Source: Actinomycetota bacterium
GTDB lineage: Bacteria; Actinomycetota; CADDZG01; WHSQ01
Length of the DNA: 41,042 nucleotides
Reading direction: 5' to 3'
NCBI GenBank assembly: GCA_030446465.1
Contig: JAUJNI010000002.1
Coordinates: 1 to 41,042, forward strand
This document shows, in pieces, positions 1-24,723 of the stretch. Numbering within the stretch: position 1 is the first letter of the stretch; each line of letters starts with the position of its first letter. Position numbers and translations under genes: made by a program. The notes beneath the pieces were generated by a model. It did not search any database. It was not told the origin of the DNA and was given only the letters and a program-made list of their open reading frames with translations.

Positions 1-412
1 CCTCTCCCGGTTCTCCGGGCTCCGCTGGGAGATGCTGGCGGCCGCCGGGGCGAGGTCGCAGCGGCCGCTGTGGGCCAGCACGGGCACAAAGAATCCGGCT
101 TACTCCGAGGTGCTCTACGTCGAGCAGCTGATAGGCCCCGACGTCATCAACACCATGCCCGAAAAGACGCTGGTAGCTTTTTCCGATCATGGCCAGGTCC
201 GCCCCACCCTAGACGCCAAACCTGGGGGTGCGCAGCGGGTTCTGAACGATCTACCGAGCGCCGATATCGACCTCCCCAGGGTCACTTCCGAGTTGGAGCG
301 GGAGGGCGTGGAGTCATTTTGCCAGTCCTACCGTGAACTGCTCGACTGCATCGAGGCGCGGTCGGTCGAGCTCCAGACCTCCGCCCTCCCGATAGGCGCT
401 TCGCCCACTTAA
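1..412 (+). CDS. tal: Transaldolase, C-terminal part (5' end outside window)
   Basis: The reading frame is open from the window edge (first full codon at 2) to the TAA at 410-412, so only the last ~136 residues are present. The segment reading RPLWASTGTKNPAYSEVLYV, followed by a GPDVINTMPEKTL stretch, is the hallmark C-terminal part of the large actinobacterial-type transaldolase. This enzyme exchanges dihydroxyacetone units between sugar phosphates in the non-oxidative pentose phosphate pathway in the cytoplasm. The catalytic Schiff-base lysine would lie upstream, outside the window. An internal ATG at 32 is not the real start, because the homologous sequence continues upstream of it. The end of the gene looks intact. 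The family assignment is firm. Confidence 0.9.
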   Translation, partial: LSRFSGLRWEMLAAAGARSQRPLWASTGTKNPAYSEVLYVEQLIGPDVINTMPEKTLVAFSDHGQVRPTLDAKPGGAQRVLNDLPSADIDLPRVTSELEREGVESFCQSYRELLDCIEARSVELQTSALPIGASPT

Positions 413-494
413 CGAACTTTTGTCAGCGAGTTTGACAGCTCTTCCCACGGGCGCGATCCGGATGCGAGTCCGATGGCAACCATCTGACCCCGGC

Positions 495-737
495 TCAGCC
501 GCGCTTGAAGCTCGTTCGCTTGACTAGAGGCTTGCCTTCCTCGAGGGCTACCACATCGTGGACGGAATCTTCGGCGAGAGGCTTCTCGCTGTTATCCGTC
601 AGATCGACGGCCACGACGGGGCTGCCGGCTGGAAAACTACCAAGCTCCCTGATCTCCGGAACTGAGATCTTGCTCTTGCTCCAGGGATGGATCCTCCCCT
701 CGACGTTGACCTCGTACTTGTCCGACGCTTGATTCAT
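495..737 (-). CDS. Small ubiquitin-like protein, multiubiquitin-domain family, single domain
   Basis: An 80-residue acidic protein with a very strong ribosome site (AGGAGGAGG) just before the ATG at 737. After about seven residues it enters a beta-grasp-like pattern: KYEVNVEG, HPWSKSKISVPEIRELG, a PVVAVDLTD strand, and a terminal KRTSFKRG. This matches my memory of the bacterial multiubiquitin (Multi_ubiq) family, whose members are often encoded beside E1-like, E2-like and JAB-type peptidase genes. Here only one domain is present, the tail ends in a single Gly rather than Gly-Gly, and no E1, E2 or JAB gene lies nearby. Whether it is conjugated or acts as an unattached beta-grasp protein cannot be told. 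Neighbours (transaldolase, SufR-like regulator) do not suggest a pathway. The gene is solid; the family call is moderately sure. Confidence 0.72.
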   Translation of the reverse strand: MNQASDKYEVNVEGRIHPWSKSKISVPEIRELGSFPAGSPVVAVDLTDNSEKPLAEDSVHDVVALEEGKPLVKRTSFKRG

Positions 738-1028
738 GCGCTTTCCTCCTCCTAGCTCCCGTCGCCTTTTTCAGCCCAACCGGTGGGGCATTCTTCAATC
801 GCACTTCCAGTTCGTGTCGGAATTGGGAAGACTCTTTTGTCGGAAGATGCTCGGATGTCTCTATATCTACCACCAACATCCGTTAGCTATAGGAATCGTA
901 GCCAACTTTCCACGTCCGTCGCAACTCGTCTTGGATGGGCGGTGGCAGGTTTAGGCATCGACCGCCAGCCGGAGCGTTGACTGGAGTGAGTGTGATCGAA
1001 GGATATCTGGGAACCGTACGAGTAGGCC
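738..1028. other. Intergenic region between divergent small gene and regulator
   Basis: Divergent promoter region for the ubiquitin-like gene (minus) and the SufR-like regulator (plus). Apart from the strong ribosome site of the minus-strand gene at about 740-752, I see no convincing gene, hairpin or repeat. Overlapping short frames on both strands have no recognisable protein features. Confidence 0.5.
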
Positions 1029-1775
1029 ATGTACGAACGCTTGACGCAAGCTGCGCCTAGCCTCGCAGCGTTGGAGGACGAGAACCGGCGACGGATGTAC
1101 GCTTTCATTCGCCGTCAAGGCCGCCCGGTTTCCCGTGAGGACATAGCCAGGGAGCTCGGGCTTTCCCGAAAGCTCGCAGCGTTCCATCTAGACAAGCTCA
1201 GCGAGAAAGGACTCCTCAAGTTCCACTACGCGCGGCCACCGGGTCGTTCCGGACCCGGTGCAGGACGGCCAGCGAAGGTGTATGAGCCAGCCGACGTGAA
1301 GATCGAGGTTTCGATTCCGGAGCGTCGCTACGACCTTGCCGGTGCTCTTCTGGTTGACACGGTAAGGGGCCAAGCAGCTTCATCCGGCCACGAGCACGCT
1401 CAGCGGGTTGCGAGGAAGGCGGGGTTTGGCCTTGGACGGGAACTCCGGGAAGCAAAAAGGCTCGGTCGGCCGGGAGCGGAACGCACACTCACACTCGCCA
1501 AGGAGGTCTTAGAACGGTACGGCTATGAGCCCCATCAAGGTCCTCTCGAACAGATCGCTCTTCGAAACTGTCCCTTTCACGCCCTTTCTTCCTACGCGCC
1601 CGATCTCATATGTCCGATGAATCAGGCGTTTATCGAGGGGATGGTTCGCGGCCTCGGTAACGAAACCGTAACGGTCGACCTGAAGCGCCTTCCCGGGCAG
1701 TGCTGTGTGAGTTTACGGGCGCCGCAAAGACGCAGTGTCGGACCGAAGCGACAGTCGGCGAAGGGGTCCGACTAA
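1029..1775 (+). CDS. SufR-like winged-helix regulator with C-terminal Cys cluster (probable Fe-S sensor)
   Basis: A 248-residue protein. Residues ~15-66 form a winged helix-turn-helix (DIARELGLSRKLAAFHLDKL), with a basic Gly/Pro-rich wing at ~70-86. The C-terminal half has the motif NCPFHALSSYAPDLIC (Cys181, Cys195) and a CC pair at 225-226, the arrangement of the SufR branch of ArsR-like regulators. Members of that branch bind an Fe-S cluster and repress Fe-S assembly or redox genes. No suf genes are in the window, so the target is unknown. A decayed paralogue of the same family lies at 8255-8675. The protein is probably cytoplasmic and dimeric. The fold and family are confident; the ligand is inferred from the cysteines. 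Confidence 0.82.
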   Translation: MYERLTQAAPSLAALEDENRRRMYAFIRRQGRPVSREDIARELGLSRKLAAFHLDKLSEKGLLKFHYARPPGRSGPGAGRPAKVYEPADVKIEVSIPERRYDLAGALLVDTVRGQAASSGHEHAQRVARKAGFGLGRELREAKRLGRPGAERTLTLAKEVLERYGYEPHQGPLEQIALRNCPFHALSSYAPDLICPMNQAFIEGMVRGLGNETVTVDLKRLPGQCCVSLRAPQRRSVGPKRQSAKGSD

Positions 1776-2257
1776 GATACTCCGTCAAACCGGCAGGCAA
1801 TCGGCCTGCTTAACAAACCCGAGAGCGTTACTCATGACGAGTTGCCCGGATACTTTCATAATGCTCTTGGCGAGCTAGAGGCAGGGTTAGTCGTAACGTC
1901 AACCTCGTTTGACTATAGAAGCTACTTCTTCTTTGAACTTCTTGTAACACCTTATTCGATTATCGATTCTCAGTTGATGCCAAAGCAATTGTTACTTAGA
2001 ATCTAAGCCAAGCGTTCTGGGGTTTAGGAGGAGACGCCCACCGCGTCGCGGCCAGCACCACTGCTATACGCGTGGCTCTTGCCGACCTGGAATGCTGGAC
2101 TTGGTCGTTGCGTGGCACCCTGGGCGGTTCACTAAAGTCCGACTGCGGCTTCAACGTGGAAACCGCGACTGACCACCCAGTTTATCGACCAAGTCAGACG
2201 ACATTATCCCTCCCACTGATCTCTGCTCCTCGGAGTAGAGCCAAACAAGGAGTACTC
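1776..2257. other. Gene-poor leader region upstream of folE
   Basis: About 480 bases without a supportable gene. It contains a locally AT-rich stretch (about 1,900-2,010) unlike its surroundings and a perfect 13-bp palindrome at 1995-2007. The folE frame stays open upstream of 2258 back to about 2072, but that part lacks family similarity and has no good ribosome site. Confidence 0.5.
1995..2007. promoter_or_regulatory. Perfect palindrome CTTAGAATCTAAG upstream of folE
   Basis: Perfect 6-bp arms around a single A, in an AT-rich intergenic stretch about 250 bases before the folE start. The TTAG...CTAA core resembles the arms of the larger palindrome at 10361-10403, but the spacing differs. 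It could be an operator for a dimeric regulator such as the SufR-like protein encoded just upstream; this is inference only. Confidence 0.35.
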
Positions 2258-2965
2258 ATGGCGGACGGCTTCGTCTCTTCCGGCCACACCACTAGCAAAA
2301 GTGAGCCCGTCACCTCGGCCCTCTTTGAGGATCCCGAAGAAACGTCGCATTGGGAGCAAACCTGGCCCCGGCGTATTCCGGCTGGGCAGTGGGAACGGTA
2401 CAAGTCGTACGTCGCCGAAATCTTCGAGGACTTGGGGATGAATCTCAACACGCCCGGCACGTTTAAGACCCCGGAGCGATTTCTGAAAGCTCTATTTGAT
2501 TCCACAGTTGGATATGAAGGTGACTCCAAGCTCCTTACCGCGTTCCCCACCGAGTGCCGGGGCGGTCCGGACTGTTCGATAAGCCAGATCGTCGAGGGTC
2601 CGATCTCCTTCTACGCCCTTTGCGAGCACCATTCTCTACCGTTCTTCGGGCATGCGTATGTGGGATACGTCGCTCACGAGAACATCATCGGCATTTCGAA
2701 GCTGACGAGGCTTGTCCGCCTTTTCGCCCGCAGATTTACTGTCCAGGAGCGAATGGGGCAGCAGGTTGCCGACACGCTGGTGGAGTTGCTTCAGCCGCAC
2801 GGGGTTGCGGTTCACCTCGAGGCGACGCATCTTTGCACGCAGATGAGAGGGGTACGGGAAGAGCGGTCCCGAACCTGGACATCCTTCTGGCGAGGCACCT
2901 ATGAAAACCAGCCTGCGATGAGGGAGGAATTTCTCACGTTCTGCCGCGGCCATGACTCTGGCTAG
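2258..2965 (+). CDS. folE: GTP cyclohydrolase I
   Basis: A 235-residue protein starting at the ATG at 2258, chosen because AAGGAG (2247-2252) sits five bases upstream and conserved sequence begins only later. The enzyme converts GTP to 7,8-dihydroneopterin triphosphate, the first step toward folate and pterins, in the cytoplasm. The T-fold signature is clear: TPERFLKALF, then LCEHHSLPFFG with zinc ligand Cys122 and neighbouring histidines, GISKLTRLVRLFARRFTVQE, and CTQMRGV with the second zinc cysteine (Cys193). The N-terminal ~45 residues are variable, as usual. No other folate gene is adjacent, so it seems to be a single-gene unit. Confidence 0.95.
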   Translation: MADGFVSSGHTTSKSEPVTSALFEDPEETSHWEQTWPRRIPAGQWERYKSYVAEIFEDLGMNLNTPGTFKTPERFLKALFDSTVGYEGDSKLLTAFPTECRGGPDCSISQIVEGPISFYALCEHHSLPFFGHAYVGYVAHENIIGISKLTRLVRLFARRFTVQERMGQQVADTLVELLQPHGVAVHLEATHLCTQMRGVREERSRTWTSFWRGTYENQPAMREEFLTFCRGHDSG

Positions 2966-3018
2966 TGGGGTTGCACGTGCGAGTGAGGCACCCATCGGTG
3001 GCATTTGTGGCGAGCCGA

Positions 3019-3245
3019 CTATGCCGGACCACCAAAACCAATCTCATTCCAGGCCCACGGGTGGGAGTAGTAGGCAGAGCAGGCATAACGCATCCACAGG
3101 TTCCACAAATGCATCGCCAGCATACCGGCAAAGACCTCGGACGTCCGAACCGACTCGAGCATCCCCTTTTGAATGTGCCGGCTGGACGTCTCAAAGGAGT
3201 GGGCGTGCGCTCCGCCAGCGAACGCCGCCAGGCCTGCTCGTCGGA
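3019..3245 (-). pseudogene. Remnant of gluconate 2-dehydrogenase subunit 3-like gene
   Basis: The minus strand reads about 75 codons, beginning just after a TAA at 3246-3248 and ending at a TAG at 3019-3021. The peptide contains FAGMLAMHLWNLWMRYACSA and then YYSHPWAWNEIGFGGPA. The Y-x-H-P-x-A-W-x-E-I-G-F-G-G-P-A motif is what I remember from the C-terminal half of the gluconate 2-dehydrogenase subunit 3 family, small partner subunits of membrane-bound GMC-type sugar dehydrogenases. In intact members this motif is followed by about 20 more residues; here it stops immediately. There is no start codon in a sensible place and the N-terminal half is absent. No large-subunit gene is visible. I read it as a decayed fragment; the family call is moderate. 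Confidence 0.55.
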
Positions 3246-3666
3246 ATTACGAGGTCCTAAACGTGTGCGCCGTCCTTGGCGTCGCAACCTCGCAATGCTG
3301 CCCTCAGATGGCGAGCAACGAAGCCAGAGGGAAAGGAGATTTTCAATCACCTGCCTCGCCTACGTTGCCACTGGGAATGACCCCAAGAAGGCTCTAGAGG
3401 AGGGAGCGCACCACGTTCTCCCTACTAAGGGCAGGGTATGGACTGAGCCCTAGAACCTCATCCACCCGGGTCCGTTCAGAGACCATAGCAGAGGCGGCAA
3501 AGAGGCTGCGAGCAGGCGGCCTCGGTCTTCGGTCACCCTTGGATTCCGAGGGAGTCATGGATCGGCGGGGTACGAAATTCCGTCGGTTCGTCGCGGGATC
3601 GCCTTGGCGGAGTCCTCCACGAGTACTACCTGGAGGACGTTGCAGCGTGACGATCGTGTTTTGCAC
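3246..3666. other. Non-coding or fully decayed stretch
   Basis: About 420 bases between the sugar-dehydrogenase-subunit remnant and the DUF2231-Rieske gene. Open frames on both strands are low-complexity and Arg/Pro/Ser-rich without any family resemblance. I see no hairpin terminator or clear promoter. Probably eroded sequence like its neighbours. Confidence 0.45.
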
Positions 3667-4572
3667 CTATGGCCCTTCCTGATCTCGAGACGGCTGGTTT
3701 GGGTCTGTTCTCTTTGTTCCCCACTGTGAACGCAACAGCCGCCGAACCTCAATCCTTCCATCTCTACGCCTAACCTCGTACACCGGAGCCGGGACGGTGG
3801 CTGGTCCTCTGATTACTGCACCATCTGAAAGACGAAAGATGCTTCCGTGACAGGAGCATTCCACGCTCAAGTCTTTGACCTGACCAAGGTGAAGGCGGCA
3901 TCCCCGATGAGTACACCTATCGGAGAGCGCATAAATCTCCTCTCCTTCCTTGTAGAGCAGGACGCGCACCTCATTCACCTTGGACTCGATAAGGGTGCCC
4001 TCGGGGAGGTCGTCGTCGGCGATCACCGGCGTCCACTCCTGAGGCCATGCTTCGAAGGCCGTCCGGTTCACCCCAACCCCATTTACGAAGGAGAGGTGTC
4101 CGCCCAGGTAGGCGGATCCTCCGCCAATGCCGACGGCGGCAAGTGTCAACAGCTTCGCTGCCTTGCGGCTGCCATTCTTACGAGCTCTTGAGGACAAGAT
4201 TTGAAGGCAAAGAGCCGCCGTATTGCCTAATGCATGAACCGACCCCACACGTTGCTGAGCCCCCCAAAGGTCCGACCAGTCGGATAAGCCGGCCGCAATC
4301 GTGGGAAGCGCTGACACATTGCCGATGGACAGGAGCCGATCCGCCGCTCTTTCCGTGCGCTCGTCAGAAAGCAAGTCGAGCAAGAAAGCGCTGATCCAGG
4401 TACCGATCACGACATCTGTGAGTATCGGATGAAGTGGACGGCCTATCCAAGTGCCGCTGAGCAGGTCCTTTTGGAGCGACTGCTGTGGGACTGCCCGGGA
4501 GACGAGTTTTTGGACGAGGCGTGCGAAGGGGTCGACAGATTCCATCTGCTCGATTCTTGTGGTCAATCGCAC
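3667..4572 (-). CDS. DUF2231 membrane domain fused to Rieske [2Fe-2S] domain
   Basis: A 301-residue protein from a GTG start at 4572 (an ATG at 4545 is an alternative). Residues ~35-165 form a DUF2231-type membrane domain (GTWIGRPLHPILTDVVIGTW, several hydrophobic helices, and a Gly-rich AYLGGHLSF end). Residues ~185-270 are a Rieske domain with the cluster ligands Cys220-T-His222 and Cys239-S-C-His242. Such fusions occur in actinobacteria and presumably pass electrons at the membrane, but the partners are not established. The TPR gene lies upstream on the same strand with only a short gap, so co-transcription is possible. Domain identification is strong; the physiological role is unknown. 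Confidence 0.88.
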   Translation of the reverse strand: MRLTTRIEQMESVDPFARLVQKLVSRAVPQQSLQKDLLSGTWIGRPLHPILTDVVIGTWISAFLLDLLSDERTERAADRLLSIGNVSALPTIAAGLSDWSDLWGAQQRVGSVHALGNTAALCLQILSSRARKNGSRKAAKLLTLAAVGIGGGSAYLGGHLSFVNGVGVNRTAFEAWPQEWTPVIADDDLPEGTLIESKVNEVRVLLYKEGEEIYALSDRCTHRGCRLHLGQVKDLSVECSCHGSIFRLSDGAVIRGPATVPAPVYEVRRRDGRIEVRRLLRSQWGTKRTDPNQPSRDQEGP

Positions 4573-4635
4573 GACGATTACTGCCCCTTCTTAGGTGCTT
4601 CGGCTCCATTTGCATAACCAGTACAGCAGTCAACC

Positions 4636-5820
4636 TCAATTCGTCCGTAAATCATGATTCGCCATGCGTTCAAGTTGTTCGGCTTCTTCGGCCGCGATTC
4701 TCGCTGTATCGGCCGGGCCGAGCCCGATGGCTTGCTCATATGCCGCCCTGGCCCGGTCGTGTTTGCCCAGATCAGCAAGAAGTTTAGCTGCGCTAATCGC
4801 ACCTAACGACGCGTACTCCGGATGACGCAAATAAATCACCAGCTCGAAACTGTAAAGCGCATCCTCATGTTCTCCTAATGCCGCCAGAAGGTCGCCGAGC
4901 TTTAAGGCTGCCCATGAAGTGATGTCGGGATGGCCAAAAAGGATGGCTTGCCCTAAGGCTTCCTTTGCACGATCAAATTGCTCAAGCCTTTCGAAGAGAA
5001 TCCCCAGGTTGTATGCGGCCAAGGGCCCGAACTCGGGATGTCCCGACGCCTGGGCTCGCTCGTAGGCTTCTTGTGCCTGGGCCGTCTCGTTCCTTTCCTC
5101 CAGAAGGGTGCCGAGACCAAAGGCGGTGGCCGGTGCAAAATCCTCGTGGCCGGAATCGATGGCTAGCTGATACAGCTTCTGAGCCATTCTCCGAGCGCTC
5201 TCTTTTTCAACAGCAAGAAGACCAGCAAGCCTGACTCCAGCCTCTATTGACTCTTCCTTACGATCGGCCTCGACCGCTTCGCACCACGCCCGCTGTGCGT
5301 CGTAGAGTTCTAGCCGCGCTCGCCGATCTTTTTTTGTTTCGTCAAAGTCGGAACGGTAAGACCGCATGACGAGAGGAAAGACCTCTCGTCGCATATGTTG
5401 CAACGATCGGAGGCGATCGTACCGGCACGTGCCGTCGGGGGTGATCCCAACTGCAGGGGAGATGCGGTCGATGTGGACATAGATTCGGTTGTCGTCATCA
5501 AGAGAAAGGTGTAGACCGGGGCCATCGGTGATCTCTCGTAACGAGATCTGGCCATGATGCAACAGTCCGCCACCGGGAGTGTCGCGACAGAACCTACCGG
5601 TAATGAGCAGGTCATCCAGGAATGCTCTGTTGTCTTCCGATGTAAAATGCGCACCTCCAGCCCCAATTGTGACGGCGCCACCGACGGAGCGAATGTGGCG
5701 CCATAAACCGAGCTCAAGCAGTCGCCGGTAAAGCAAGCCCATTGCTCTACGTGCGGGAGTATCCAAATTGGATGTTTGTGCGGCCCGCAGCATGTTTTCG
5801 CCAAGACGTCCAGGCATCAT
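4636..5820 (-). CDS. TPR/Sel1-like repeat protein with unassigned N-terminal domain
   Basis: About 394 residues from the ATG pair at 5820/5817, preceded immediately by AAGGAGG (the frame is open to a GTG at 5892, but that start has no ribosome site). The first ~150 residues include GGAVTIGAGGAHFTSEDNRA and HIDRISPAVGITPDG and match no family I recognise. From ~190 on there are at least five 34-36-residue helical repeats with the A-x-x-x-L-G-x-L-L pattern (TAFGLGTLLEERN, AAYNLGILFERL, AALKLGDLLAALGEHEDA), typical of TPRs that bind protein partners. No signal peptide or membrane segment, so it is likely cytoplasmic. It is divergent from the GH15 gene at 5976. The repeats are certain; the function is unknown. 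Confidence 0.85.
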   Translation of the reverse strand: MMPGRLGENMLRAAQTSNLDTPARRAMGLLYRRLLELGLWRHIRSVGGAVTIGAGGAHFTSEDNRAFLDDLLITGRFCRDTPGGGLLHHGQISLREITDGPGLHLSLDDDNRIYVHIDRISPAVGITPDGTCRYDRLRSLQHMRREVFPLVMRSYRSDFDETKKDRRARLELYDAQRAWCEAVEADRKEESIEAGVRLAGLLAVEKESARRMAQKLYQLAIDSGHEDFAPATAFGLGTLLEERNETAQAQEAYERAQASGHPEFGPLAAYNLGILFERLEQFDRAKEALGQAILFGHPDITSWAALKLGDLLAALGEHEDALYSFELVIYLRHPEYASLGAISAAKLLADLGKHDRARAAYEQAIGLGPADTARIAAEEAEQLERMANHDLRTN

Positions 5821-5975
5821 CCTCCTTGATCTCTTATTACAGAGCCACGCTCGGGCCTCTGCCTCGATGCCCGGGGCGCTCCACGTTAGCACTGCTCACA
5901 TATCTATCGATAATGGACTTTAGTAGTAGAACTGCAACCGAGGAGATTGCTTCTGTTGCTCGAGGCCGGTGAGGC

Positions 5976-7793
5976 ATGAATCAACCATCGATAAGTGATT
6001 ACGCATTGATCGGTGACACGCGATCAGCTGCTCTGTGCTCGCTCGCCGGTTCGATCGATTGGTTGTGCCTGCCCAGGTTCGATTCCGAGCCGGTTTTTGG
6101 GCGACTAGTCGGGGGCGAACGTGCAGGATGTTTCGAAATCACTCCTACGGACCCTTATTCGGCATCTCGCGCTTATCGCCCTGGTTCCGCCGTCCTTGAC
6201 ACCAAGTGGGAGACGAGTACGGGTCGAGCCGTGCTCACCGATGCGATGATTTTAGAGGTGAGCGGAACGTTGCTGCCTCAGGCGCTTCTTGTGAGGACGG
6301 TCCGCTGCATGAGTGGCTCGGTCTCGCTTCGTATCCTGTTCGATCCCCGGCGCAGCTTGAAGGGTCTTCCTCCACGATCTGAAAAACGCCACGGTGCCCT
6401 TATCTGCTCATGGGGGTCACTGGCGATCGGCTTGTCTACTACCCCTGAGATGGTGCTCGAACCTGGGCGGGAACTCGAGGTTCAGCTTGACTCCGACGAA
6501 GAGATTACGTTTCACCTCGCCTTGGCGGATCGATCGCCAGTGGTCTTGCTGAGCAGTGAGACGGCGGGCAGGCACCTTGCGCGCACAACGTCGTGGTGGC
6601 GTCAGTGGTCGTCAGAGTTGCTCTACCATGGCCCTTTCAGGGATGCGGTCCAGCGCAGCCTAATCACTCTTCGGTTGCTGACCTACTCCCCTTCTGGCGC
6701 TCCGGTGGCCGCGCCGACCACCTCTCTCCCCGAAGTGTTGGGCGGCGGGCGCAACTGGGACTATCGCTTCTCGTGGCCTCGGGATGCGAGCATCGGAGTA
6801 GCCGCCTTCTTGGCGGCGGGCAAGCAGGAGGAGGCGCACTCCTTCATGCATTGGCTTACCCATGCCAGCCGGCTCACCCATCCCCGGATGGACGTTCTCT
6901 ACACAGTTCACGGCAAGCCAGGACCGGCTGAACGAGAGGTTAGTGAAGCAAGCGGATATAGAGGCAGCCGCCCCGTTAGGGTCGGCAACGCTGCAAGCGA
7001 ACAGCATCAGCTGGACGTATACGGGTGGGTCGTTGATGCGGCTTGGTTGATGACCCAATCGGGCCAAAAACTCGGGAGAGAGGCATGGCGAGCGCTTCGA
7101 GCGTTCGCCGACTACGTCGCTCGTAGCTGGCGACTTCCCGATGCCGGCATATGGGAGGTTCGTGGGGAGCCCGCACACCACGTTCACTCGAAACTGATGG
7201 GATGGCTGGCGCTCGATCGAGCAGTGAAAATGGCGACGTCGCAAGGCGCCCGTCCGTCTCAGTTACGGGTCTGGCGGGAGCAGGCGGAGCTGCTAGCGGC
7301 CGACATCAAGAGCAAGGGTTTCAACACCGAGATGAACTCATACGTTTGGAGCTACGGCTCCAGGCATCTCGACGCCGCTCTGCTGCTGTTGCCAATGCTC
7401 GAATTTGAGGAACAAGGATCGCGCCGGATCGAGGGTACAGTGTCGGCAATCCAAGACCAACTCAGTGCCCGAAGGGGACTTATTTACCGTTACCCACCGG
7501 GGGCTGACCTGATGGAGGGTGACGAGGGGGCGTTTCTTCCTTGCTCGTTCTGGCTAGTTCAAGCGCTCGCGCGCCAGGGGGAGCTGGACCAGGCGACGGC
7601 GCTGTTCGATCAGCTGTTGACCTTCGCCAACGATCTGGGTCTATTTAGCGAGGAGATCAATCCGCTGACGGGTGAGCTGCTAGGGAACTTCCCCCAGGCA
7701 CTTACCCACGCGGCACTGGTTCAGGCCGCCATCGCAATTGACAAGGCGTCAGACGAATCGCGATCCACCACCGACCTTTTGGAGCGAAACTGA
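5976..7793 (+). CDS. Glycoside hydrolase family 15 enzyme (glucoamylase/trehalase-like)
   Basis: A 605-residue protein. The N-terminal part has the family opening (ISDYALIGDTRSAALCSLAG, SIDWLCLPRFDSEPVFGRLVG), forming the beta-sandwich domain. The (alpha/alpha)6 barrel carries GGGRNWDYRFSWPRDASIGVA around residues 260-275, and near the C-terminus the SEEINPLTGELLGNFPQALTH segment corresponds to the second catalytic-acid region. GH15 enzymes release glucose from alpha-glucosides; actinobacterial members of this layout include trehalases. Substrate cannot be chosen from sequence alone. There is no signal peptide, so it is likely cytoplasmic. It overlaps the next gene by one base, which implies translational coupling. 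Full length and intact. Confidence 0.93.
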   Translation: MNQPSISDYALIGDTRSAALCSLAGSIDWLCLPRFDSEPVFGRLVGGERAGCFEITPTDPYSASRAYRPGSAVLDTKWETSTGRAVLTDAMILEVSGTLLPQALLVRTVRCMSGSVSLRILFDPRRSLKGLPPRSEKRHGALICSWGSLAIGLSTTPEMVLEPGRELEVQLDSDEEITFHLALADRSPVVLLSSETAGRHLARTTSWWRQWSSELLYHGPFRDAVQRSLITLRLLTYSPSGAPVAAPTTSLPEVLGGGRNWDYRFSWPRDASIGVAAFLAAGKQEEAHSFMHWLTHASRLTHPRMDVLYTVHGKPGPAEREVSEASGYRGSRPVRVGNAASEQHQLDVYGWVVDAAWLMTQSGQKLGREAWRALRAFADYVARSWRLPDAGIWEVRGEPAHHVHSKLMGWLALDRAVKMATSQGARPSQLRVWREQAELLAADIKSKGFNTEMNSYVWSYGSRHLDAALLLLPMLEFEEQGSRRIEGTVSAIQDQLSARRGLIYRYPPGADLMEGDEGAFLPCSFWLVQALARQGELDQATALFDQLLTFANDLGLFSEEINPLTGELLGNFPQALTHAALVQAAIAIDKASDESRSTTDLLERN

Positions 7794-8266
7794 TGGACTG
7801 GTCGGGATGGGCAACATTCGGATTCGGCGCCACTATTGCCCTGACCGGAATCATGGTCGCTGCTCAGCTGGCTGGTCTCACTCGGATGGATCTGCCCATG
7901 ATGCTGGGCACTCTGGTTGTCGGCGACGCCGACCGAGCACGGGTGGCCGGATTTTTTGTACATCTGCTGGTGGGTCAGTTCTTCGCAGTGTTCTATTTGG
8001 CAGCCTTCGACAATCTTGGAAACGCATCTTGGTGGCTCGGTGCAATGTTCGGAGCCTTCCACGGTCTTGCTGCGCTGACACTGCTCATCCCGTTGCTCCC
8101 CGGGATCCATCCCCGAATGGCTTCAGAGCGCGCAGGACCTAGGCTCGGTGGGGTTCTGGAGCCTCCGGGCCTGTTCGCCCTCAACTACGGCAAGGAAACG
8201 GCCCTGGTTACATTCATCGCGCACGTGGTCTACGGCGTTATCCTCGGCCTCTTCCTAGGCCCCTGA
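7793..8266 (+). CDS. Small integral membrane protein, translationally coupled to GH15
   Basis: A 157-residue hydrophobic protein whose ATG overlaps the TGA of the GH15 gene. Four hydrophobic segments are visible (residues ~7-28, ~50-72, ~80-105 and ~135-155), with a polar loop containing IHPRMASERAGPRLGG. I do not recognise a characterised family. Coupling to GH15 suggests that the two are made together, but a role in sugar metabolism is inference only. The gene looks intact and its codon use matches the neighbouring GH15 gene. Confidence 0.75.
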   Translation: MDWSGWATFGFGATIALTGIMVAAQLAGLTRMDLPMMLGTLVVGDADRARVAGFFVHLLVGQFFAVFYLAAFDNLGNASWWLGAMFGAFHGLAALTLLIPLLPGIHPRMASERAGPRLGGVLEPPGLFALNYGKETALVTFIAHVVYGVILGLFLGP

Positions 8267-8675
8267 GCCCTTTGACGATTCAGGCAAACGAAGTCGTACG
8301 AAACACTCCACCTCGGACGGCTCCAGCAAAACCTGCACGGACTCACTACCCAGGCCCTTGGTCAGACCCTTCAAGAATGCATGGTTCATCCCACACACCA
8401 AGTCTGACGCCTGACGCGCGAGCTCGTTAAATGGGCAGTTATGGAGCGCCACCTCCCGCCGATTCGGGTGATAAGGCTCGTAATCATGTCCTGGAGCACC
8501 CTCTCCCCCGCAGTTAGCGCGCGCTCCGGTCCCAGTCTGTGTGCCGCAGAAAGGGTGGCGAACGGTATTAGCCAAGTTTCTTCCGGCTTCGGCTGCGACG
8601 CGCTTGGCCGCACGCTCCGGCGTTTCCTCCGGCCCGTCAGGTTCAAAAACTCGGCTGACAGCGATAATTGCCCGA
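8255..8675 (-). pseudogene. Decayed second SufR-like regulator, N-terminus lost
   Basis: The minus strand encodes the C-terminal half of the same family as the regulator at 1029-1775: VALHNCPFNELARQASDLVC, then GMNHAFLKGLTKGLG. Upstream of that the frame slips and returns: residues matching RLGPERALTAGERVLQD are read in a different frame (about 8490-8560), while the flanking ETPERAAKRVAAEAGRNLANT and HDYEPYHPN parts are in the first frame. The whole DNA-binding domain is missing, ending near 8675 where the transposase gene begins. Two compensating shifts plus truncation argue for a dead gene rather than a short functional one. It is probably not recent paralogy, because the protein identity is modest. 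Confidence 0.8.
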
Positions 8676-9706
8676 TGACCCTTACCTTTCTATATGTCAT
8701 CGTCTCTATATGTCATCGTCGGCCGAACGTTCCGGCTTCTGTTCGGTCGCCTCGGATCCGACGCTCACAAGGACGTTGAGATCGCCGTCTTGCGGCACCA
8801 GCTCGCGATCCTGCGCCGGGCAGGTCAAACGGCCGAAGTACTCTGCGGCTGATCGACAGTATTGGCGACCTGCGCTCAGCTGCTCCCCCGCCGACTCTGG
8901 CAAGGCTTTCTGGCAGCAACCAGGGCTACATCCGCTGCAGTGGTGTCTGAAGACCAACCGTTCATCCGAGATTCAGTTCACCGCCCCTAGTTCTTTCACC
9001 ACGCTGGGCTACATGCGAATCCAGGGTGAACTTCACAAGCTGGGTATCCGGGTGGGGACCTCCACGGTCCGGCGGGTTTTGAAGGATCACGGACTGCAGC
9101 CGGCTCCCCGTCGGGATGGGCCGAGCTGGTCGGAGTTCTTGCGCGCTCAGGCGCACGGGATTATCGCCACCGACTTCTTCACCGTTGAGACGGTCTGGCT
9201 CAAGACGTTGTACGTCTTGTTCTTCATCGAGCTTTCCACCCGCAAGGTCCATATGGCCGGGGTAACCGCCAACCCCGACTCGTCATGGGTGACCCAGCAG
9301 GCAAGGAATCTGTTCATCGTTCGGGAGGACGATCCGTTTTCCCACGATCTCTGATCCACGACCGGGATTGCAAGTTCACCGGTCCCTTTGACGAGCTATG
9401 CGTGTCCGAGGGTATCCAGATCATCCGCACGCCGTACCGGGCACCTCGAGCGAACGCTTTCGCGGAGCGTTGGGTCCTAACCGTTCGAAGCGAATGCTTG
9501 GACGGGATTCTGATCCGCAGCCGGCGCCACCTTGAACGGGTGTTGCGGGGCTACGTTGATCACTACTGTCGGGAACGGCCTCTCGGGGACTCGATCTCAA
9601 GATACCCAAGTCACGAGGCGACCCGCCGGAGCGCCGCGGTGCGCTTCGACTGGAACGCCGCGACATCCTCGGTGGGCTGATTCACGAGTACGACTGTGCC
9701 GCCTAG
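8675..9706 (+). pseudogene. Frameshifted DDE transposase (integrase-core type insertion sequence)
   Basis: The whole length of an ~344-codon transposase can be traced, but in several frames. It starts at the ATG at 8675 (MTLTFLYVIV), is shifted by a 16-bp tandem duplication, continues as DAHKDVEIAVLRHQLAILRR to a TGA at 8850, then changes frame again. The integrase core is clear: GYMRIQGELHKLGIRVGTST, IIATDFFTVETVWLKTLYVL (first Asp), IHDRDCKFTG (second Asp) and RANAFAERWVLTVRSECLD (catalytic Glu), ending in ILGGLIHEYDCAA at 9706. This type is common in actinobacteria (IS3/IS481-like). The element is inactive. It cuts the SufR-like remnant on its left and a lipoprotein gene on its right. Confidence 0.88.
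8689..8720. repeat. Perfect 16-bp tandem duplication inside the transposase 5' end
   Basis: The unit tctatatgtcatcgtc occurs twice back to back (8689-8704 and 8705-8720). Removing one copy restores the reading frame from the ATG at 8675 into LYVIVGRTFRLLFGRLG, so the duplication is the first inactivating lesion of the transposase. Replication slippage is the simplest origin. Confidence 0.92.
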
Positions 9707-9823
9707 CGTGGGAAATCGGGGTTTTGGCACCCCACAAGCGCTGGCCGCGAACAGGAAGAGTGTGAGCATGGCGGCGAGCACCCAGAAGGAGATGACTCGA
9801 GGAGCTGTCTGGTCAGACTTCAC
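9707..9823 (-). pseudogene. 5' fragment of a lipoprotein gene cut by the transposon
   Basis: A GTG start at 9823 overlaps the TGA of the upstream gene by four bases, indicating coupling. About 38 codons are native: a basic start, a hydrophobic stretch (VISFWVLAAMLTLFLFAASA) and a lipobox-type Cys (ASAC), followed by GVPKPRFP. From about 9706 downward the frame runs antisense through the transposase end and is no longer native sequence (stop at 9611). I infer that insertion of the element removed the rest of the gene, so the family cannot be identified. Confidence 0.6.
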
Positions 9824-10050
9824 GTGAGCGTTCCCTCGCCTCGCTCCCTATTGAATCGGCGGGGGTGGGCGCGCACCCGTTCGTAGTCACTTAGATCGAC
9901 CTCGACTTTCTCGCGGCACCCCGCATAGCCACATTCACAGAAGACCCTGAACGTCGTCTGCCTGAGGCCTTCGGCGGCTTCACCGATCAGTGTAATTTGG
10001 AATTCCGCATGACCGCCTCGTTGCGGCCTACGGATCTTCCTTTGATCCAC
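9820..10050 (-). CDS. Small conserved protein with CECGxxGC motif
   Basis: About 76 residues from a GTG at 10050 (the frame stays open to a TTG at 10080). The core FRVFCECGYAGCREKVEVDL followed by SDYERVRAHPRRF resembles small actinobacterial hypothetical proteins with a C-x-C-x(4)-C motif and an E-Y-E-x-V-R-x-H-P-x-x-F tail. The three cysteines suggest metal or Fe-S binding, but no function is established that I know of. The C-terminus is shorter than I would expect. It is translationally coupled to the truncated lipoprotein gene downstream. It may still be intact; start choice is uncertain. Confidence 0.6.
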   Translation of the reverse strand: MDQRKIRRPQRGGHAEFQITLIGEAAEGLRQTTFRVFCECGYAGCREKVEVDLSDYERVRAHPRRFNRERGEGTLT

Positions 10051-10360
10051 CCTCGCCGCCCCCGCTAGACCTACCCACAACTACGAGATCAAGCTGTCGG
10101 AGTAACCCTGCGGCCTAAGGCTTCCGAGTGGATCGACCCGCCTGCCTTGCTGCCTAACCCTGCTCCTCGGGAGAGCGGCTCTGCTAAGTGAAACAGGCCG
10201 GCGGCTGGGGAGGTGGCTGGACGAGGCGAAGCCGAACGACCACGGGGGCAATAGAGCCGCGATGGTGCTCCCTCAACGTTCCGCGAGTCGATCGACTGCG
10301 TCGACCGAGTCCCTTCGACCGCATCTGCCTCCAACGTGGCATTGACATACGCTGCGGCAA
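10051..10360. other. Intergenic region without visible gene
   Basis: About 310 bases between the CECG-motif gene and the palindromic operator. Frames on both strands are Arg/Pro/Ser-rich and unrecognisable. The last part contains a -35-like TTGACA at 10342-10347, belonging to the promoter of the membrane protein gene at 10415. Confidence 0.45.
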
Positions 10361-10371
10361 TGATTTAGTGT
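10342..10371 (+). promoter_or_regulatory. Probable promoter of the His-motif membrane protein operon
   Basis: TTGACA at 10342-10347 is a perfect -35 hexamer. A -10-like TAGTGT lies at 10366-10371 with 18-base spacing, inside the left arm of the palindrome at 10361-10403. Overlap of the -10 and start region with the palindrome is what is expected for repression. The -35 is clear; the -10 is a weaker match. Confidence 0.5.
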
Positions 10372-10403
10372 GATCTAAATATAATATTTAGCATACTAAA
10401 TCA
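10361..10403. promoter_or_regulatory. Nested 43-bp palindromic operator
   Basis: The outer arms TGATTTAGT (10361-10369) and ACTAAATCA (10395-10403) are perfect inverted repeats. Inside, CTAAAT-ATAAT-ATTTAG (10375-10391) is another perfect inverted repeat. The block can also be read as two adjacent operators, ATTTAG-TGTGAT-CTAAAT (10363-10380) and ATTTAG-CATA-CTAAAT (10386-10401). It is strikingly AT-rich against its surroundings, overlaps the -10 element and ends 11 bases before the ATG. The TTTAG/CTAAA arms recall DtxR/MntR-type metal-regulator sites. That link is inference; the palindrome itself is unambiguous. Confidence 0.85.
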
Positions 10404-10414
10404 AAGGATTTTTA

Positions 10415-11554
10415 ATGGCTAATAACGGCGCCCTGGCGTCTTGGCGTGACCACCTGGTTCTAGCGGTTTTCGCCGTTGTCACAGTAGGCGGGCTGTTCCT
10501 GGACGGCTGGGCGCACTTGAACCTGGAAACCAAGCTGGCTCCCTTCCTTGAGCCGTGGCACACGATGATGTACGCCGGGTTCCTCGGAGGCGGCATCTCG
10601 ATCCTCACGTGTAACCAGCGACCTTTTCGATTTCGGTTCTCTCGGCTGCCACAGGGATATGGGGTAGCGGTGGCAGGTATGGCGATCGCGGGTCTTGGCG
10701 TTGCGGGCGATGCCCTATGGCATGTGGTATTCGGCGTCGAGACCGGGCTTGCTCGAGTACTCAGCACTTTTCATGTACTGCCGTTCGCTGGGACGGTTCT
10801 GGTGCTGACGACTCCGCTTCGGGCGATGTGGCTGGATAGCAGCATCGGGCGCGAGGTTTCGTTCAGCAGGCTGCTGCCGGCGCTGCTAGCCCTATCGTTC
10901 ACGACGGCGTTCGTTGCCTACTACCTGCAGTATCTATCTCCGTTCGTGAGCTGGTCGGAAGCAAACCTCGTGCAGGAATCCCCTGCGACCCTCTCGGGCG
11001 CGAATGAGGTGCTGCTAATGACTCGCGTTGGCGGAATCCTCCTAACCACTCTCTTGCTGCTCGCCCCCCTCTTGGTCCTTATGCGTCGATGGATCCCGCC
11101 GCAGGGGAGCGCGACCATGCTGTTTACGGTCGTCGCCACTCTGATGAGCGCTCTGAACGGTTTCGCTCTGGGCGGTCTGGTCGCCGCTGCCAGCCTCGGC
11201 GGCCTGCTCGCCGATCTGCTCTTGTGGCGCATCGACGGGCGTCCGGGGAAGCGGGTTCGCTTCCTTGCTGCAGTTGTTCCGCTGGGGACGTGGAGCGCCT
11301 ACTTCTGGGTGTTGGCTACATTATACGGGGCGGTCTGGCCCTTGGAGTTGTGGATGGGCACAGTCGTCGCAGCGAGTCTGATGGGGCTCACTCTGAGTTG
11401 GCTGATGTTCTCGACCTCTCCGGCCGTCAGCACTAACCCGTCTCCCTCGCCGACCCGCCGGCTGATCCATCGCCCCGAGTCCCGTTGGGCCTTTGATCAC
11501 GAGCCGCCGGTGGAACACGCAGACTCGCGCAGCGTGATCAGCGCACCTCCCTGA
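10415..11554 (+). CDS. Polytopic membrane protein with duplicated D-x3-H...H motif
   Basis: A 379-residue protein with about nine or ten hydrophobic segments and a polar, Pro/Ser-rich C-terminal tail (~335-379). Two motif copies sit in the first half: Asp30, His34 and His49 (FLDGWAHLN ... EPWHTM), and Asp99, Trp102, His103 and His120 (GDALWHVVFGVE ... STFHVL). The same duplicated pattern and a preceding RLPxG occur in the N-terminal half of the fusion protein at 22177-24723, so the two are homologous. Buried His/Asp residues suggest metal or heme binding. I know of no characterised family. It is followed 78 bases later by a His-rich secreted protein and preceded by a large palindromic operator, which points to a regulated, possibly metal-related operon. 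Confidence 0.85.
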   Translation: MANNGALASWRDHLVLAVFAVVTVGGLFLDGWAHLNLETKLAPFLEPWHTMMYAGFLGGGISILTCNQRPFRFRFSRLPQGYGVAVAGMAIAGLGVAGDALWHVVFGVETGLARVLSTFHVLPFAGTVLVLTTPLRAMWLDSSIGREVSFSRLLPALLALSFTTAFVAYYLQYLSPFVSWSEANLVQESPATLSGANEVLLMTRVGGILLTTLLLLAPLLVLMRRWIPPQGSATMLFTVVATLMSALNGFALGGLVAAASLGGLLADLLLWRIDGRPGKRVRFLAAVVPLGTWSAYFWVLATLYGAVWPLELWMGTVVAASLMGLTLSWLMFSTSPAVSTNPSPSPTRRLIHRPESRWAFDHEPPVEHADSRSVISAPP

Positions 11555-11632
11555 GGCGTGAAGGGCCGCCCTGTGGTCGAAATGATTCAAAGCATGCCCA
11601 TAGACCTACTCGCAATAGGAGGTAAGAAGAGA

Positions 11633-12094
11633 ATGTTGAAGACCTTTAGCAAGGCCCTGTTAGCGTCAGCGACAGTTGCATCCGTCCTCGCCGGTGGTGC
11701 CATCGCTCAAGGACACTCTCGCTCGACGGTGCCAGCATTTCAGCTGAAATCAGTGCAGGTGCAGGATTCGAAGGTGGTCGATGTCACGTTCAACAACCCC
11801 CTTTCTTCAACGATGACGGATCCCGCGCTTCGGGTCTTCCACGCTCCGCATTGGGACCATGACACTCCCCACTCCCATGAGGCTTCGAGCGTGGTGTTGA
11901 TCAACGAAGGGACGACAGCGCGAGTGACCCTCGACCGAGCACTGCACTCTGAGGATCCACCTTGTGACAACGACGTCGAACCGCGCTGCTCCGACGACGA
12001 ACTTGACTTCGTTATCACCGACGCCACTGACATCTATGGCCAGCGCATCTCAAATGACGACTGGGAGGTTTGGGCCGTGGGATCAGAACGCTGA
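11633..12094 (+). CDS. Secreted His/Asp-rich beta-domain protein, partner of the membrane protein
   Basis: A 153-residue protein from the ATG at 11633, chosen because AGGAGGT (11617-11623) precedes it and a clean signal peptide follows (FSKALLASATVASVLAGGAIA, cleavage after AIA at ~26). The mature part is a beta-rich domain with the cluster FHAPHWDHDTPHSHE around residues 78-92, rich in potential metal ligands, and two cysteines in a very acidic loop (DPPCDNDVEPRCSDDELD). I recognise no named family; the size and His cluster recall periplasmic metal-binding proteins. It probably acts outside the membrane together with the upstream protein. A hairpin terminator follows directly. Confidence 0.82.
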   Translation: MLKTFSKALLASATVASVLAGGAIAQGHSRSTVPAFQLKSVQVQDSKVVDVTFNNPLSSTMTDPALRVFHAPHWDHDTPHSHEASSVVLINEGTTARVTLDRALHSEDPPCDNDVEPRCSDDELDFVITDATDIYGQRISNDDWEVWAVGSER

Positions 12095-12099
12095 CGCGG

Positions 12100-12143
12100 C
12101 CGAGGTAGGGGGTCGGGGAGCTCCAGTGATCCCCCACCCTCGG
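12100..12143. terminator. Hairpin between convergent genes
   Basis: The arms CCGAGGTAGGGGGTC (12100-12114) and GATCCCCCACCCTCGG (12128-12143) pair almost completely, with a 13-base loop, just after the secreted His-rich protein and facing the chlorite-dismutase-like gene. No T-run follows on either strand, so strength is uncertain, but position and stem favour a shared terminator. Confidence 0.6.
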
Positions 12144-12190: not shown

Positions 12191-12751
12191 CTATCCAGAG
12201 TGGTTCTTGCGAATGAGCCGGATGTCGATCTCCCGGACGACGTAGGTCCACTCACGCTTCTCACGCAAGACGGCAACCAGCTCTTCGAAATCGGCGGCGG
12301 AGGCCGACGGAAACTCGAACCAGGTTAGGAAGTCGAACGATTCGCCAAGATCTCGGCCGTGGTAGAGGCCTCGGGCGACAGTGGGGAGATATTTCAGTCC
12401 GGTCGCGATGTGATGGGATTGCTCCTCGAATATCTCGCGCCTCGCATCCTGGGGCAGATCCCACCACTCCGGCGATTTGCTGATGGGGATGAGTGCAGCG
12501 CTCGTTGCGTGTGGCCGCCCGAGCGGCGGGGAAAGCTCGTCAAGCGTTACCCTTTCCCGGCGGTTCACGTATCGCTCATAGCCGGGCACGCCGCGAAGGC
12601 GCCATGCGGAACCGTCCGACGGATGCGACTGCTCGCCATCGACTATCTGAAGCCTACCGGCGGCGGCCAACGGCTCACCGACAACGGCCTCATTCCGCAC
12701 AATCTGCCATTGACCGCGCTCGCCACCGGCGAATGTCGTTATCGGAGGCAT
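12191..12751 (-). CDS. Chlorite-dismutase-like heme protein (short form)
   Basis: About 186 residues from the ATG at 12751, selected because GGAGGAA lies just upstream; the longer open frame lacks family sequence. The C-terminal signature FLTWFEFPSASAADFEELVA, then VLREKREWTYVVREIDIRLI is typical of the chlorite dismutase/HemQ superfamily. The upstream EEQSHHIATGLKYLPTVARG segment holds the probable proximal heme histidine. Short members are dimeric and are known to degrade chlorite or to act as peroxidase-like heme proteins; actinobacterial HemQ is longer and makes coproheme into heme. No heme-synthesis genes are adjacent, so I favour a generic Cld-like protein. The gene is intact. Confidence 0.85.
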   Translation of the reverse strand: MPPITTFAGGERGQWQIVRNEAVVGEPLAAAGRLQIVDGEQSHPSDGSAWRLRGVPGYERYVNRRERVTLDELSPPLGRPHATSAALIPISKSPEWWDLPQDARREIFEEQSHHIATGLKYLPTVARGLYHGRDLGESFDFLTWFEFPSASAADFEELVAVLREKREWTYVVREIDIRLIRKNHSG

Positions 12752-13011
12752 TATCCGTTCCTCCAGCGTCCTTGATCTCTTCGTCAAACTCTCCCACGCT
12801 CGCCTATTCCGCTGTCGTCCGCGTTTGTTCCCGCGACGCGCCGTGTCATCTACCTCTCTGGGCGCGGCTGCGCCCCCAGACCAGCCGTTCCTTGTGACGC
12901 AACCCTTCGTGCGGTAACTCCTCCACGCCAACCGAACGCCGCGCGTCCATGGATGCTCGCTCGACGTCGTGGTCGGTCGCTTTACGTCGCTGATCGCCCG
13001 AGCCTGTGTCT

Positions 13012-22176: not shown

Positions 22177-24723
22177 CTAGTCGCGGGTGCCTCCAGTCAT
22201 TCCCCATGTCCCGCTGTCGGCATAGCGGACGAAATTTGGGACAGGCCGAGTCCTCGCCCAGCGGGCCACCCGGCGCGCGATAGTCGCCTCGGTGAGACGT
22301 GGGAAGCGGCGAGCCGCCCACAGCTCCACGGCGGACAGCCAGCTGGTCGTCAGACTGCGAGGCCGTTGACAGCAAGCTCGAACAATTGCATCCACTGCAC
22401 CATTCATGGTGTCTGCTCGGATGAGGCCTTCCAGCGATACGCCCGCCGCATTCGGCGCGTTGTGGATCGACGTGCGGATATATCCCGGGTAGACGGTGCT
22501 TACGGTGATACGGCCTCGGTACTCGATGCGCAACGCGGCCGAGTAAGCGGAGAGTGCGCGCTTGCTGGCGCTATACGCGGCGCCGAACGGTAGATCGACG
22601 AAGGCAAGGCCGGAGGCGACGTTGATCACGTGTCCGTGAGCATCCAGGAGGTGCGGCATTGCCGCGGCCGTGGCGTTCCAAGCCCCAAAGAAATTGACAT
22701 CGACGACTGCGTGAGCTTCTTCGGTCGGGAAGGCCCCCGCGTCCTGCGCTCGCCCTATGCCGGCATTGTTGACCAGGATGTCGATGCCCCCGAGACGCTG
22801 TGCGCATATGTGCATCGCGTGGCTCATCGCTTGGGCGTCGCGCACGTCCGCTTGAACTACATCTGTGGCCGGCTGCAGATCGATTCCCACCACGTGGGCA
22901 CCGTGCTCTTTCAAGGTGACCATGGCTGCGGCGCCGATGCCGTCGCTTGCGCCGGTGACGACGATCCGAGACCCTGCCAGTTCCCTGGGCGACATACGAC
23001 CGACCCTCACGAAAGCGAACGTGAGTGTCCCGATCCACCCAAGAGCGACGACCAGAATGGCTCCATAGGCCACCACGGCCGGCCACGCTGCACCTTCGTG
23101 AGCTTCTCGCATAAGCAGCTCGGTATCGCGACGAAAGCTGGAGTCACGCACGGGGACGACAGGGATCTCTTTAGCGCCGATGACGGGGTCCGCCGGCATG
23201 TAAACGGGCACCGCCACCATCACGTCCTTGCGCGCAAGCCGCACCATCGACTTCCAGTCCCCCCCAACCGGTACGGGCCTCTCAGCCCGATAGCGGCCGG
23301 GCCCGTGTTGCTCGAGGGAAGTGATGACCAGGGCTCCTCCTTGCCACGACATGACCTCGAACAGGTCCGAGCTCTCGGCCGCGTCGACCGGTTGCAGCTT
23401 CACCGTCAGGTCGACAGAGTCCTGAGTAGCCGGTTGGGTGCGGACCGTTGCCTCGAAGGGGGCGTCGCTGCGGGGCAGGGGCAGCACCAAGCCGATCACG
23501 AGAGTGGTCCCAGCAAGGGCGATCGAGCCCGCACGAATCCCCGCAGTGCGAAACGACAGGATGCGTCCCACGGCCGTGCCGATCACCGCGGCGCCCACCG
23601 CGACGACGGCTGCTATGACGATCGCAGGGAAGAGGCTCGGCCCCCACGGATGGCGCCCCCACACCTGCATCCAAGTCCACTCCGACGCAAGCCCGACGGT
23701 GCCGACGAGGATTCCGGTGACAATCGCTGCGGCAAGCGGCGGTAGATTCCTTGCCATCGCGGCAGCACCTTCAACCGCGAGCGCGGCACCGAGATAGAGC
23801 GGAAAGCGCGGCACCGTTTGGTTCAAGCCAGGGCCGAGCGTCAGCGCAAGCAGAGTCCTGATAACGACGAAGCCGGCCGCCGCAATCACCGCGCCCCCGC
23901 GGCCTAGCGCGGTGCGCGCGACTACCAGCCCTATGCCGGTTGCTGCAGCGATCAGCACGGGGTGATAGAGCTGTTGGAATTGCGGTACCCCGAAGTCGAA
24001 CTCTGCCTGAAAGGTGGACAGTCCCACGACGACCGCAGCGGCAAGGAACACCTTGACGGCACGGGCCAAAGACGGGCGTCCGCAATCCGGCCCCGCCTCT
24101 CTTAGCAGCAGCCACAACGCGAGCGGCGTGAAAGATGCTCCCGAGATCATCAACAGATGAGTCGGCCCCCACATCGTGACGTCCACGCCGTAATTGCGGT
24201 GCCACAACTCGTCGAGAGGAAATCCCGCCACCGCGCCCAGCCCAAGGGCGCCCAGCGCTACAGCCCCGTAGGGCAGGCGTAAAGAACCCCGTCTCAACCC
24301 AGATTCCGCCTTGAAGAGGGTGGCGAAGAGGATCGTTATCAGCGCGGTCGCAATGATGGAGGTGAGGCCCACCAGAATCATCGTGTGCGAGGGCGTGAAC
24401 AAGAACTCGTCGCGTCCGAAGTCGATGTGCCATGAGACATCCCAGAGGAAGCCGATTACGGCAACGAGCAGCGACCAGGCCCCCAGACCCAGCCCGGCCG
24501 CGCACCAGGCGGGCAAGCCGGTTACACGCTCGAGCGATGATCCGATGCGCTTGACCGCCACGTTGATCGGCCCGCTCGCCCGGGGAGCCTGCCCGGTGGC
24601 GAGGAGCCACAGGGTGATCGCCGACAAACCGGCAAGGGGGACCAGCAGAAAGAGCCACTCCGAGCCGAAGGATGCAAGCGTGACTCGCTCCCCATGTGCG
24701 AGAAGCACCTCTGGCAACTTCAT
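22177..24723 (-). CDS. Polytopic His-motif membrane protein fused to a short-chain dehydrogenase
   Basis: A single 848-residue frame. Residues ~20-420 have about eleven hydrophobic segments with the duplicated motif Asp95/Trp98/His99...His113 (WDVSWHIDFG...PSHTM) and Asp171/Trp174/His175...His189 (LDELWHRNYGV...PTHLL), shared with the protein at 10415. Residues ~425-530 look like an extracytoplasmic beta domain (DLTVKLQP, GRYRAERPVPVGGDW, similar to YtkA/FixH-type modules). A membrane helix at ~550-572 follows. Residues ~580-848 are a classical SDR: VVTGASDGIGAA cofactor loop, LVNNAGIG, and Y-S-A-S-K with the upstream Ser. It starts four bases inside the MBL-fold gene, so the two are coupled. 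No stop or ribosome site separates membrane and SDR parts convincingly. The membrane-SDR combination is unfamiliar to me. Confidence 0.85.
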   Translation of the reverse strand: MKLPEVLLAHGERVTLASFGSEWLFLLVPLAGLSAITLWLLATGQAPRASGPINVAVKRIGSSLERVTGLPAWCAAGLGLGAWSLLVAVIGFLWDVSWHIDFGRDEFLFTPSHTMILVGLTSIIATALITILFATLFKAESGLRRGSLRLPYGAVALGALGLGAVAGFPLDELWHRNYGVDVTMWGPTHLLMISGASFTPLALWLLLREAGPDCGRPSLARAVKVFLAAAVVVGLSTFQAEFDFGVPQFQQLYHPVLIAAATGIGLVVARTALGRGGAVIAAAGFVVIRTLLALTLGPGLNQTVPRFPLYLGAALAVEGAAAMARNLPPLAAAIVTGILVGTVGLASEWTWMQVWGRHPWGPSLFPAIVIAAVVAVGAAVIGTAVGRILSFRTAGIRAGSIALAGTTLVIGLVLPLPRSDAPFEATVRTQPATQDSVDLTVKLQPVDAAESSDLFEVMSWQGGALVITSLEQHGPGRYRAERPVPVGGDWKSMVRLARKDVMVAVPVYMPADPVIGAKEIPVVPVRDSSFRRDTELLMREAHEGAAWPAVVAYGAILVVALGWIGTLTFAFVRVGRMSPRELAGSRIVVTGASDGIGAAAMVTLKEHGAHVVGIDLQPATDVVQADVRDAQAMSHAMHICAQRLGGIDILVNNAGIGRAQDAGAFPTEEAHAVVDVNFFGAWNATAAAMPHLLDAHGHVINVASGLAFVDLPFGAAYSASKRALSAYSAALRIEYRGRITVSTVYPGYIRTSIHNAPNAAGVSLEGLIRADTMNGAVDAIVRACCQRPRSLTTSWLSAVELWAARRFPRLTEATIARRVARWARTRPVPNFVRYADSGTWGMTGGTRD

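Follow-up and report, generated by a model that had tools for sequence, protein, structure and literature searches.

The window, by which we mean the whole 41,042-nucleotide stretch of DNA analysed, carries on its forward strand a two-gene operon (10415-12094) encoding a 379-residue multi-helix membrane protein (open reading frame 10415-11554) and a 153-residue secreted His-rich protein (11633-12094, with an ATG start after AGGAGGT). Ahead of the first gene lie a Shine-Dalgarno-like sequence, AAAGGA (10403-10408, forward strand), and a 43-bp block, TGATTTAGTGTGATCTAAATATAATATTTAGCATACTAAATCA (10361-10403), with a G+C content of 21% against 62% for the window. This block had been singled out, from the letters alone, as an AT-rich element having perfect 9-bp outer arms and a perfect inner CTAAAT/ATTTAG repeat and ending eleven bases before the ATG at 10415; inspection found all of these features exactly as described, the outer arms being extendable to 12 nt at 92%. 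A remnant of an IS3-type transposase (HTH_21; 8668-9680) lies just upstream of the operon.

Between a terminal TG and CA, the block comprises four half-sites of alternating direction (ATTTAG, CTAAAT, ATTTAG and CTAAAT), separated in turn by TGTGAT, ATAAT and CATA. Its sequence reads best as two adjacent palindromes with centres 22 bp apart: ATTTAG-N6-CTAAAT (10363-10380; arranged 6-6-6), which we propose as an MntR operator, and ATTTAG-N4-CTAAAT (10386-10401; 6-4-6, with perfect arms), a possible auxiliary operator. A scan of the whole 2.76-Mb genome, of the kind initially suggested as a check, retrieved TTTAG-N(3-8)-CTAAA at two places, both within the block, and the same held for ATTTAG-N(3-8)-CTAAAT. 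Among 20,000 dinucleotide shuffles of the block, a 9-bp arm pair arose in 162 and two separate 6-bp inverted repeats in 32, with both symmetries together in a single shuffle; the block is not a product of chance.

The same operon occurs in two other genomes. One, G020 (locus L005), is placed in another family of the same class and is 98.9% identical over window positions 1-12115, where the alignment stops; such a match may stem from recent horizontal movement of the DNA or from misbinning of one of the draft genomes. Its counterpart of the block differs at five of 43 bases (10369, 10372, 10373, 10380 and 10402), leaving all four TTTAG/CTAAA pentamers and the second palindrome intact. The other, G005 (locus L006), is of the same family and 89% identical over 10311-12114; it is the only diverged relative. 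It keeps the first palindrome, as TTTAATCTCACCTAAA, and has lost the second, and its membrane gene is frameshifted in that assembly; most genomes in the comparison are draft assemblies. In G020 a DtxR-family regulator gene (mntR) adjoins the operon in convergent orientation, and in G005 an mntR-multicopper oxidase-ZIP cluster lies within about 5 kb, downstream of the operon. Recurrence of the motif before orthologous operons was thus borne out in these nearest two relatives, whereas before distant homologues of the membrane gene the MntR motif was absent: their aligned promoters share no motif, and they carry TetR-like or CsoR-like operators.

A consensus sigma-70 scan of the operon promoter came back empty. 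The best reading by consensus combines a -35 element, TTGACA (10342-10347, forward strand), which matches consensus and is kept in both L005 and L006, with an 18-nt spacer and a probable -10 element of the form TANNNT, TAGTGT (10366-10371, forward strand), inside the first palindrome. The equivalent hexamers, 17-18 nt downstream of TTGACA, are TAGGGT in L005 and TAATCT in L006. Because this combination of TTGACA and TANNNT at 17-18 nt is kept in all three sequences, the first palindrome would cover the likely -10, the promoter assignment being one of consensus only. TATAAT at 10380-10385 was rejected as a -10 element, having no -35 at the correct distance and not being kept in the relatives.

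Comparison of three operon promoters with three mntR promoters first suggested the motif TTAR-N6-YTAA, to which the first palindrome conforms. Of 30 MntR homologues in relatives, 23 had it in the 160 bp preceding the gene, or 20 of 27 once the three mntR promoters that suggested it are set aside, mostly 15-40 bp ahead of the start; 200 dinucleotide-shuffle runs gave a mean of 0.22 and a maximum of 3. All 15 MntR homologues with at least 50% identity were preceded by it. A symmetrised matrix derived from the mntR promoters of other genomes, the host's own being left out, was run over 190 kb and scored 17.0 bits at 10363-10380, the top of the window by 8 bits (next place, 9.3), a value that mainly restates the core match since the matrix sites were picked by the core motif. 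The corresponding palindromes of L005 and L006 scored 15.1 and 18.8. The second palindrome lacks the same spacing and scored -0.4 bits, its N4 spacer being 2 bp short. Across the host genome TTAR-N6-YTAA occurs at 11 places against 9 for a reversed control; with a count so near background, the case for MntR rests on the location of the matches.

Four of these 11 places lie on promoters: directly before mntR-mntABC (C6:72468), before a multicopper-oxidase/ZIP operon (C4:275565, TTGACAAGTGATTTAGCCATAGCTAATAC), before a P-type ATPase operon (C6:380250), and before the membrane operon of the window. The motif accordingly recurs before metal-transport genes of the same genome, as had been anticipated for a metal-responsive site, and in 14 relatives the multicopper oxidase gene directly adjoins an mntR homologue. 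The motif, its link with mntR across relatives and the sites common to host promoters all emerge directly from these computations. Tandem sites also occur elsewhere, at mntR of genome G028 (about 22 bp apart), at C1:74207 and at C6:380250. Among 396 genomes of the phylum, 17 matched the tandem pattern and a reversed control matched a similar number, so that we claim no general tandem rule. The site at L078:2508-2542 (G000 C1:74207-74241) is a tandem of TTAG..CTAA, one with an N5 and one with an N6 spacer, in the interval of a divergent gene pair that encodes an unknown membrane protein on one side and a small membrane protein, followed by a radical SAM enzyme, on the other.

The original prediction remarked that no DtxR/MntR regulator is encoded in the window. 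This is so; an MntR-like gene lies outside it, at C6:72491-73171, 31 kb beyond the window end, where it heads an mntABC-type operon and is followed by a substrate-binding protein, an ATPase and two permeases of Mn/Zn type. Scanning the host genome for candidate regulators yielded four DtxR-family genes, one of them this MntR-like gene, and one Fur-family gene. The Fur box is a GATAAT-type 7-1-7 repeat, and none is present in the block at 10361-10403. The only BlaI/CopY regulator in the genome, beside an M56-like peptidase recognised by eye, was also considered, and no link to the operator site was found. Host MntR, the nearest host counterpart of the regulators encoded near the operon in G020 and G005 and 71% identical to the G005 homologue, matches the NCBIfam MntR model NF047407 (Thermus/Deinococcus) at 3.3e-71, a match that falls under the model's strict cut-off of 350 bits, versus 1.5e-28 for the iron-type DtxR model, and it has Glu at the metal-binding Cys position of IdeR (HAEAEILEH versus HAEACRWEH). 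Its best PDB matches by sequence are 5zr4 and 8pvt, the latter of which we take to be DR2539 of Deinococcus radiodurans; the Asp and Lys of DYLK are common to host MntR and 8pvt. DR2539, an MntR/DtxR protein, is described as responding to both Mn and Fe; it targets an inverted repeat of the mntH promoter and has Lys in place of the classical MntR Glu11 (PMC3327659). It comes from a different phylum and resembles host MntR in its N-terminal Asp and Lys, in Glu at the IdeR Cys position, in a C-terminal extension and as a repressor type acting on a metal-uptake promoter (PMC3327659).

The mntR-linked motif, the sites of the host regulon, the rank of the matrix match and conservation in relatives together support well the early suggestion of a DtxR/MntR-type site; the regulator concerned is of MntR type and not an iron-type IdeR, and the motif is matched by the first palindrome alone. 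MntR, a DtxR-superfamily repressor, very probably docks on that palindrome, an operator of well-known type at a new place, and we hold with considerable confidence that 10363-10380 is the operator through which host MntR exerts metal-dependent repression of the 10415-12094 operon, co-expressing it with the MntR set under scarcity. In a cytoplasm rich in Mn(II) (or Fe(II)), a metal-loaded MntR dimer would sit on TTTAG-N6-CTAAA, covering the -10, excluding RNA polymerase and keeping the operon off; when the metal is scarce, the operon would be on together with the mntR-mntABC, multicopper-oxidase/ZIP and P-type ATPase operons. Cooperative addition of a second, weaker dimer at 10386-10401 may also occur. 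SloR belongs to the same superfamily as MntR, and its elements in the Streptococcus mutans mntH and sloABC promoters, which are 6-6-6, often side by side and cooperatively bound (PMC12096823), make such an addition conceivable, though the spacer here is 2 bp short. Binding, the identity of the metal, repression and cooperativity at the operator are what we infer from this arrangement. SloR elements share with the first palindrome both its geometry and its overlap of the core promoter; they precede metal-uptake genes and have TTTTAA-like halves (PMC12096823), whereas the present block has TTTAG/CTAAA halves and a 6-4-6 arrangement in its second palindrome, and the regulated gene encodes an unknown membrane protein. 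No identical site emerged from a text search of the literature that combined TTTAG/CTAAA with DtxR.

Three of the four DtxR-family genes in the host are not MntR, and the site could belong to one of their products, above all an iron-type IdeR, with the operon answering to iron only. One IdeR dimer does bind a half of the iron box, TTAGG-N4-CCTAA, with the TTAG-N6-CTAA geometry of the first palindrome (PMC8464063). The complete IdeR/DtxR iron box, however, spans 19 bp and holds two overlapping dimers on four CCTAA repeats (PMC8464063); within 10361-10403 there is no GG/CC beside the arms and no overlapping second dimer. IdeR-like sites of the host do take the form TTAGG-N4-CCTAA, before sufB-/sufD-like genes and an EfeO-like gene near ferritin (L081:2489, L082:2528 and L043:2146), where they probably constitute a separate IdeR-like iron regulon, and the mntR-derived matrix gave them 7-11 as against 17.0 on 10363-10380. 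On these sequence comparisons MntR rather than IdeR is the likely repressor, and control by another DtxR-family protein appears improbable. The original prediction had also left room for one big operator in place of two adjacent ones, and the outer arms indeed pair over 12 nt, the block as RNA folding at -16.7 kcal/mol (z = -6.4), as a single operator or an RNA or DNA hairpin occupying the whole 43 bp might do. Yet L005 has lost pairs 10362/10402, 10369/10395, 10372/10392 and 10380/10384, with no compensation in the outer arms, while its four pentamers remain intact, which favours the two palindromes over a single large one. The probable transcript start, moreover, falls inside the left half of the block, so that an RNA hairpin would not be made, and the leader alone folds like many shuffles (z -1.2 in the window, 0.1 in L005); we regard the single palindrome as very unlikely.

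Distant homologues supply a further alternative, namely that the operon answers to a regulator of TetR or CsoR type and that the match to MntR is coincidence. The G005 paralogue of the 10415 gene (L048:8646-10468) lies divergently from a TetR gene, and its reading frame is immediately preceded by a perfect 18-bp palindrome, TGTTCAGTATACTGAACA; CsoR-like G-tracts (TACCCCCCCTAGGTA; ATAGGGGTGGGGGGTAT) precede homologues at L012:4938 and L056:6372, beside copper genes. The operon promoter of the window contains none of these sequences, and the operon has no TetR or CsoR gene as a neighbour, either here or in G020. The MntR matrix match exceeds its nearest competitor in the window by 8 bits; we give this alternative almost no credence.

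With MntR as the favoured regulator, the main new information is the placement of an uncharacterised membrane protein in a Mn/Fe regulon: the switch is ordinary, yet through it an unannotated membrane-protein family enters that regulon, and TTAR-N6-YTAA offers a means of reading the MntR regulon in a little-studied actinobacterial lineage. The 379-residue protein has no Pfam or NCBIfam match. Its AlphaFold2 model (pLDDT 86, pTM 0.84) gave no PDB fold match at E <= 0.001 with Foldseek, and a sequence profile search of the PDB found no relative. Alignment with 18 homologues (19 sequences) showed W102, H103, G107 and H120 to be invariant. Translations read from the neighbourhoods of homologues include CcdA and a multicopper oxidase (L012), a copper-type ATPase (L056) and a cupredoxin-like gene (L058); a role in metal handling or in the supply of metalloenzymes is therefore probable for the family. 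Homologues of the 153-residue His-rich protein were found only in L005 and L006. As a tentative and rather doubtful extension, the two proteins may form an undescribed system of Mn (or Fe) acquisition or handling, built on an unsolved membrane fold and released by MntR with the multicopper oxidase and ZIP under shortage, its response tuned by a tandem operator of unequal spacers.

Elsewhere in the window, the reverse strand encodes an 848-residue protein (22177-24723) whose N-terminal membrane part, containing two WH...PTH motifs that resemble those of the 10415 protein (hhalign E 2.5e-6), is fused to a short-chain dehydrogenase. For a chlorite-dismutase-family gene (12191-12931, reverse strand), DNA of 72% identity is also present close to the operon in G020, and a homologue of the gene lies near another host DtxR gene (L041:12465).
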